Of a DNA stretch of 36,471 nt, positions 14,313 to 14,682 are shown piece by piece. The notes under the pieces are model-generated. The model did no database searches. It worked only from the letters and a program-made list of their open reading frames with translations, and was not told where the DNA came from. This stretch comes from Bacteroidales bacterium (GTDB lineage: Bacteria > Bacteroidota > Bacteroidia > Bacteroidales > VadinHA17), in assembly GCA_025454775.1 (NCBI GenBank), contig JALONU010000019.1, positions 1 through 36,471 on the forward strand, given 5' to 3'. Position 1 is the first letter of the stretch; every line of letters begins with the position of its first letter. The position numbers were made by a program, and so were the translations under genes.

Positions 14313-14682
14313 CGTCTTCAATTTTTCTTCTCAAACAGCACAAGCATGAGAGCTTTTTTATCTCATTTCCGATACACTTTCTGAATGTTTTTCCGGGGAA
14401 AGGAGAGCAACCGGTCTTTCACCTCCGTATCTACAAAAAAAGACCTCTCAACTTCTACTTTAAACAATTGATATAATGGATATTAGATAATAGTACAAAG
14501 ATACTAAAAAATGCGGACTTTTTGTTAAGGAAATGTTATTTTTTATGCACAATCAGCCGGAGAAATCAACAGCCCTAAAAAGTCTTGCAGTCCTGCAGTC
14601 CTGCAGTCGTGCGGTCCTATAAGACTTCATGACTACAGACTGCAGGACTGCAGGACTGCAAGACTGTAAAACTGCAAGACTA
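14313..14682. other. 370-bp intergenic region upstream of gyrB
   Basis: No gene is present. The part next to gyrB (14313-14520) is AT-rich. A -7-like TATCTTTG lies on the minus strand at 14496-14503 but has no TTTG at the -33 spacing, and it would imply a leader of about 170 nt. The distal part (14581-14682) is an octamer tandem array folded into a long inverted repeat, next to the stop codon of the beta-barrel gene. Confidence 0.65.
14581..14682. repeat. Octamer tandem arrays arranged as a perfect 28-bp inverted repeat
   Basis: The left arm (14581-14608) is made of AGTCYTGC octamers and is the exact reverse complement of the right arm (14638-14665), made of ACTGCAGG/ACTGCAAG octamers. The spacer is 29 nt and contains further degenerate units. 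The right-hand units continue in phase (ACTGTAAA, ACTGCAAG) up to the stop codon of the beta-barrel gene at 14683. On the minus strand the hairpin is followed by TTTT, so it may also work as a transcription terminator. Confidence 0.85.

Follow-up and report, generated by a model that had tools for sequence, protein, structure and literature searches.

The window analysed here, a stretch of 36,471 nucleotides from a Bacteroidales bacterium, carries on its minus strand a gene for a beta-barrel-like protein of 566 aa (14683..16383), and the next gene on that strand (12342..14321) belongs to the DNA gyrase B family. The beta-barrel protein has no Pfam match, and its label was taken from the preliminary description of this DNA together with the protein sequence. 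Its ortholog adjoins gyrB throughout the genus, and the order from beta-barrel to gyrB was kept in the congeners compared. In the gyrB leader (window 14322-14580, L251-L274), a genus-conserved block, GTTRATTTCT ... TTGTGCATAAA ..., is followed by a TAnnTTTG-type promoter, and this upstream block and its Bacteroidetes-type promoter (about 14495-14560) lie outside the array described below.

Between the two genes, two facing arrays of one 8-bp unit, GACYGCAR, were found. The left array (14581..14616, minus strand) consists of AGTC and four units, TTGCAGTC CTGCAGTC CTGCAGTC GTGCGGTC, and reads on the minus strand as GACCGCAC GACTGCAG GACTGCAG GACTGCAA GACT, with the GACT end toward the gyrB leader. 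A degenerate middle with no strand assigned (14617..14637) forms the hairpin loop, and the right array (14638..14681, plus strand) reads GACTGCAG GACTGCAG GACTGCAA GACTGTAA AACTGCAA GACT. The right array ends 1 nt short of the beta-barrel gene's TGA stop (14683-14685); in the sense of the beta-barrel mRNA, the stop is followed by UAGUC and then by the units. The preliminary description had reported an exact 28-bp inverted repeat made from one 8-bp unit, with units in phase up to the stop codon, and both observations were confirmed: the arms (14581-14608 and 14638-14665, 28 nt each, 29 nt apart) are 100% complementary and built of GACYGCAR octamers and their complements, and the right-arm units stay in register to 14681. 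When the arms were lengthened to 36 nt, complementarity was 86%. Since perfect complementarity is lacking in most of the genome's other inverted pairs, the exactness of the 28-bp arms is partly luck of the unit variants. Right after the stem lies a run of five T (14577..14581, minus strand), one of which doubles as the stem end, resembling a terminator tail for the beta-barrel transcript.

Read in the sense of the beta-barrel mRNA, the locus folds with -70.8 kcal/mol, compared with -34.1 for shuffled sequences (z = -10.5), and the stem is directly followed by UUUUU. With the beta-barrel stop on one side and the conserved leader and promoter of gyrB on the other, the hairpin occupies the place in which one would look for a terminator. 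Because the two arms make a very stable hairpin and U5 follows, the most likely role of this copy is to terminate or stabilise the transcript of the beta-barrel gene, ahead of gyrB, which has a promoter of its own. The general terminator scan gave nothing for this region, but a hairpin of this size is beyond the stem and loop lengths that it accepts. The GC-rich stem and U-tract of a Rho-independent terminator were found at the window copy but not generally: loci with two arms give strong folds (-47 to -60 kcal/mol per 100 nt), single-arm arrays scarcely surpass other 3' regions in folding, if at all, and only some arrays have a T-run behind them. Given the weak folding of single arms, the hairpin cannot be the function that the arrays share, and a general terminator function was rejected on this ground and on the inconsistency of the T-runs.

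Comparing the same locus in relatives, as had been proposed, gave a divided answer. Gene order was kept, and an inverted pair of 9-bp units occupies the gap in G010, but G004 has almost nothing there, and the remaining congeners have either different repeats or no repeat at all; in nearly all congeners, the hairpin is missing. The hairpin at the window locus is therefore lineage-specific and no function is conserved at the beta-barrel site, while the assorted repeats found there in other species mark the gyrB-leader gap as a repeat-prone spot. Thus, the earlier suggestion of a terminator or 3' stabiliser holds as a possibility for the window copy and fails for the single arms and for the orthologous gaps that lack the hairpin; the remark that the structure is too regular for an ordinary terminator was upheld.

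The genome-wide octamer count that had been called for was also run. Within the window, GACTGCARGACTGCAR (up to 3 mismatches) matched 13 times against a shuffled expectation of 0.83, and none of 100 shuffles reached 13. In the whole host genome (3.28 Mb, Bacteroidales-type, 288 contigs), 114 matches with up to 2 mismatches were obtained versus 1 for the reversed control, and the exact 15-bp GACYGCANGACYGCA matched 84 times in about 29 clusters, with 0 matches for the reversed control. The concern that no further copies might exist was thus removed, and one of the many copies lies in the window itself: a second, single-arm array (35649..35680, plus strand) reads AACTGCAA GACCGCAA GACCGCAA GACTGCAG, then GACC, and a distance of 4 nt separates it from the stop of a minus-strand gene encoding a GntR/UTRA regulator. 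The arrays mostly contain 2-5 perfect units, with a maximum of 17, and 35 of the 37 host arrays examined are intergenic. In other species, the unit is the 9-bp GACYTGCAN. A de novo census of tandem units (7-12 bp) placed the array units first in the host and G025 and joint first in G026, in contig sets partly chosen for arrays; the host non-array contigs alone show no such units. As tandem units of about 7-9 bp, dispersed and mostly intergenic, the arrays have the properties that define STRR, heptamer and satellite families. They are not CRISPR, as had already been stated, since CRISPR has repeats of about 20 nt or more with unique spacers, whereas these are spacerless, head-to-tail 8-bp units dispersed over many loci. 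A known RNA family was likewise rejected, Rfam giving only miRNA hairpins below the gathering cut-off.

Arrays were also seen at contig ends (G000:C238:1, G000:C286:1) and beside N runs (L097, L106, L107, L164; UBA5235), so that their true copy number and length are probably underestimated. A second module, a stem-loop like GTCGGAACGAAGTGAAGATCCCGCTTCGGCGGGA, occurs in or beside host octamer arrays (L183:803 and 5035, L187:1040, L197:5127, L202:9306, L203:5959); a perfect array is found no more than 150 bp away from five of its six copies, and the sixth carries remnants of octamers at each end. The module has the look of a further element nested within the arrays. Elsewhere in the window, positions 6401-6452 hold a C-rich/G-rich repeat, CCCGACCCCCAATCCCCCGACCCCCCAACCCCCCAAGGGGGGCTTCAAG, and similar palindromes, CCCCCTAAAGGGGG, fill intergenic sites in congeners (L256, L291, L297).

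To describe array placement, the arrays were read as (GACYGCAR)n-GACT, and genes were defined simply as longest ORFs. The GACT end was within 15 nt of a gene boundary in 15 of 26 cases, compared with an expectation of 5.0 when arrays are placed at random in the gaps that they occupy, and 0 of 5000 random placements reached this value. From the GACT end to the stop the median distance was 5 nt, while the opposite array end was free (median 76 nt). Among the stop-adjacent arrays of the host, G025, G026, the G010/G004 loci and other named congeners, 65 had the sense orientation stop-AGUC(YUGCRGUC)n and 16, about one in five, the opposite one (P = 3.6e-8). The link to the stop codon pointed out earlier was upheld. 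In the host, 15 of the 17 listed stop-adjacent cases were in sense orientation, and at some junctions the array runs straight into the stop codon (TAG, TAA and TGA adjoining TCTTGCGG, GTCGTGCGG and GTCTTGCGG, respectively). Stop adjacency was not significant in G026. A weaker rule of the same kind was found for the GACT end at starts and leaders (26:8). Close inverted array pairs all showed outward polarity (13:0). Inspection of the host loci by eye placed most inverted pairs between convergent genes, so that the palindrome is best understood as the meeting of two arrays, each oriented to its own gene; the window pair, placed between co-directional genes, is an exception among them. Array loci in general are commoner between convergent than between divergent genes, and divergent gaps and positions directly before starts also hold some arrays. 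The elementary form is not the palindrome but an oriented array right next to a stop codon.

The ratio of 8-bp to 9-bp units differed strongly among genomes: 51:7 in the host, 10:100 in G010, 25:0 in G004, 70:6 in G023, 0:37 in G013, 0:30 in G009, 4:43 in G018, 2:83 in G025 and 174:119 in G007. In a tree of the beta-barrel protein, the host and G010 are sisters (support 100/98) and G004 comes next, with the 9-mer-rich genomes scattered over the tree, which points to several independent 8/9-bp switches, their number being estimated from this single-gene tree. Orthologous sites were then located by searching the C-termini of genes adjoining host arrays in G010 and G004. Arrays followed the orthologous stops at 6 of 12 sites in G010, against a base rate of 2.9% (from 3/136 genes; P = 5e-7), and at 5 of 10 sites in G004, against 0.6% (from 0/174 genes; P = 1.5e-9). 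These shared sites carry octamers in the host and G004 and mostly nonamers in the closest sister, G010, and the flanking proteins are only about 65-88% identical between species. A glutaminyl-tRNA synthetase-like locus in G010 contains an 8/9 mixture, and such mixed arrays number 4 of 17 in G010 and 1 of 38 in the host. Sites that are old but whose unit has been replaced mean concerted evolution, brought about either by arrays exchanging sequence or by the sites being seeded anew time and again. The recombination hot spot proposed in the preliminary description may or may not apply, but for the unit to change genome-wide from one species to the next, some process must homogenise it.

Of 35 congeners, 28 had the 8-mer pattern, and none of 24 genera sampled beyond this one did. 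Among 393 Bacteroidales sampled, the pattern occurred outside the genus in only three genomes, at one locus each, which are possibly mis-binned contigs, and the 9-mer GACYTGCAN pattern is almost entirely confined to the same genus. Octamer arrays were also met on contigs of MAGs labelled Synergistaceae, Lachnospiraceae or Lutibacter (L098, L109, L132, L165, L177, L178), likely mis-binned Bacteroidales contigs. Streptomyces diastatochromogenes (L089, L130) has at least 12 GACYGCAR units at mirrored positions near both chromosome ends, presumably in the terminal inverted repeats, and is likely an unrelated coincidence of unit. A phage origin was rejected, the 8-mer triple being found on one viral contig and the 9-mer triple on five, among 2.9 million.

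Taking these data together, the window hairpin is a member of a genus-specific, dispersed and oriented family of short-unit arrays whose unit is in concerted evolution, and we give an even chance to the reading that the arrays act as a REP-like 3'-end mRNA element. The 3'-end function and its mechanism are what we infer here. The arrays would be 3'-UTR elements maintained by selection for what they do at the 3' end of the mRNA before them, with ribosome release, 3' decay and termination as candidates, REP-like in action; in E. coli, REPs within 15 nt of the stop codon downregulate translation (PMC12306157). Within each genome, the arrays would be homogenised through exchange between arrays. 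Where two genes converge, two facing arrays make an inverted repeat. An unlikely though more specific reading takes the stop-adjacent (Y)UGC(A)RGUC arrays as putative binding sites of a trans-acting factor, which might be an RNA-binding protein, a nuclease or a ribosome-linked factor, on the 3' ends of many unrelated mRNAs, its spacing preference (8 vs 9 nt) driving the unit switches. If true, this would mean co-evolution of a regulator with dozens of sites.

The leading rival to selected 3'-end elements, possible though doubtful in our judgement, is a functionless satellite that grows by slippage, is spread and homogenised by recombination, and has its ends set by selection at stops and promoters. 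Unit homogenisation, the mixed 8/9 arrays of G010 and the frequent assembly breaks at arrays all fit recombination-prone DNA, and the preference of the GACT end for starts and leaders looks as if any functional boundary limits it. However, orientation bias and site persistence weigh against this explanation, as a satellite alone accounts neither for the fixed orientation at stop codons nor for arrays persisting at the same stops between species with such diverged flanking proteins. That the loci are ordinary bidirectional intrinsic terminators, whose sequence recurs by chance, appears distinctly improbable: the strong stem and U5 of the window copy, the strong folding of two-arm loci and the excess of convergent over divergent sites would suit it, but single arms fold much like control 3' regions, T-runs are inconsistent, the terminator scan is empty here (within limits too narrow for a hairpin of this size), the positions of some arrays, between divergent genes or directly before starts, do not fit, and the sister site in G004 is nearly empty.

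RAYT-mobilised REP/REPIN elements occupy the same niche (extragenic, after stops, in outward inverted pairs), and Y1_Tnp genes are present in most congeners. Nevertheless, no Y1_Tnp (PF01797) match was detected in the richest genome, G007 (97% complete, 174 matches), or in G026 (96% complete, 29 matches), array-poor genomes have several Y1_Tnp genes, and the array unit is a short tandem repeat rather than a single palindrome. With RAYT transposases absent from the richest genome, the arrays are not RAYT-driven REPs as far as we can judge, and we regard this origin as very improbable. An assembly fold-back artefact, which the preliminary description had also considered, has a practically negligible chance. 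Assembly can create palindromes and the host assembly is fragmented, but the two flanks are different genes in an order conserved in the genus, and arrays occupy the same sites in independently assembled sister genomes.

Like the REP/BIME/REPIN elements of Enterobacteria and Pseudomonas, the arrays are multicopy, extragenic and of common consensus, often lie within 15 nt downstream of stops, and form hairpins as inverted pairs. They differ in that their arms are tandem 8- or 9-bp units, in that unit length switches between sister species, in that single oriented arrays are common and not palindromic, where each REP element is a palindrome, and in their independence of RAYT genes, which accompany REPs and are missing in G007 and G026. 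STRR heptanucleotide repeats of heterocystous cyanobacteria are also short tandem units dispersed between genes, of a different unit and phylum. We know of no stop-codon rule for STRR. TAACTGA heptamer direct repeats of Beggiatoaceae, Cyanobacteria and some Bacteroidetes resemble the arrays as short, mostly intergenic, gene-oriented tandem units with a proposed post-transcriptional role, but they lie mainly just upstream of start codons in Beggiatoaceae and keep one unit across lineages (PMC4679880), whereas the arrays lie behind stops, are genus-specific and change unit length. Satellite families such as (AGGGGAGT)2 in Mesorhizobium are similarly octamer-derived, species- or genus-limited and scattered between genes, and the accessible part of that report does not mention stop adjacency, orientation or positional conservation with concerted unit change (PMC6749651). 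The arrays share post-stop placement with ribosome termination structure, described as a general tendency for RNA structure immediately after stops and not as a repeat family (PMC7518266); single arrays, by comparison, are only weakly structured. In the open literature on octamer, heptamer, STRR and REPIN repeats, we found no description of GACYGCAR arrays, nor did we find in the open literature a described repeat family whose sites are kept between species while the unit switches genome-wide.

Dispersed bacterial repeats are usually put down to a transposase or to slippage. Here, the sites are old and shared, the orientation is strongly biased, and a single genus has seen several changes of the unit between 8 and 9 bp, so the arrays represent concerted evolution of non-coding DNA in bacteria. 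They also account for some of the assembly breaks and scaffold gaps in MAGs of this genus. The host, G010 and G004 form a clear natural experiment on what homogenises the units and on whether the 3' ends of housekeeping mRNAs have a reader.
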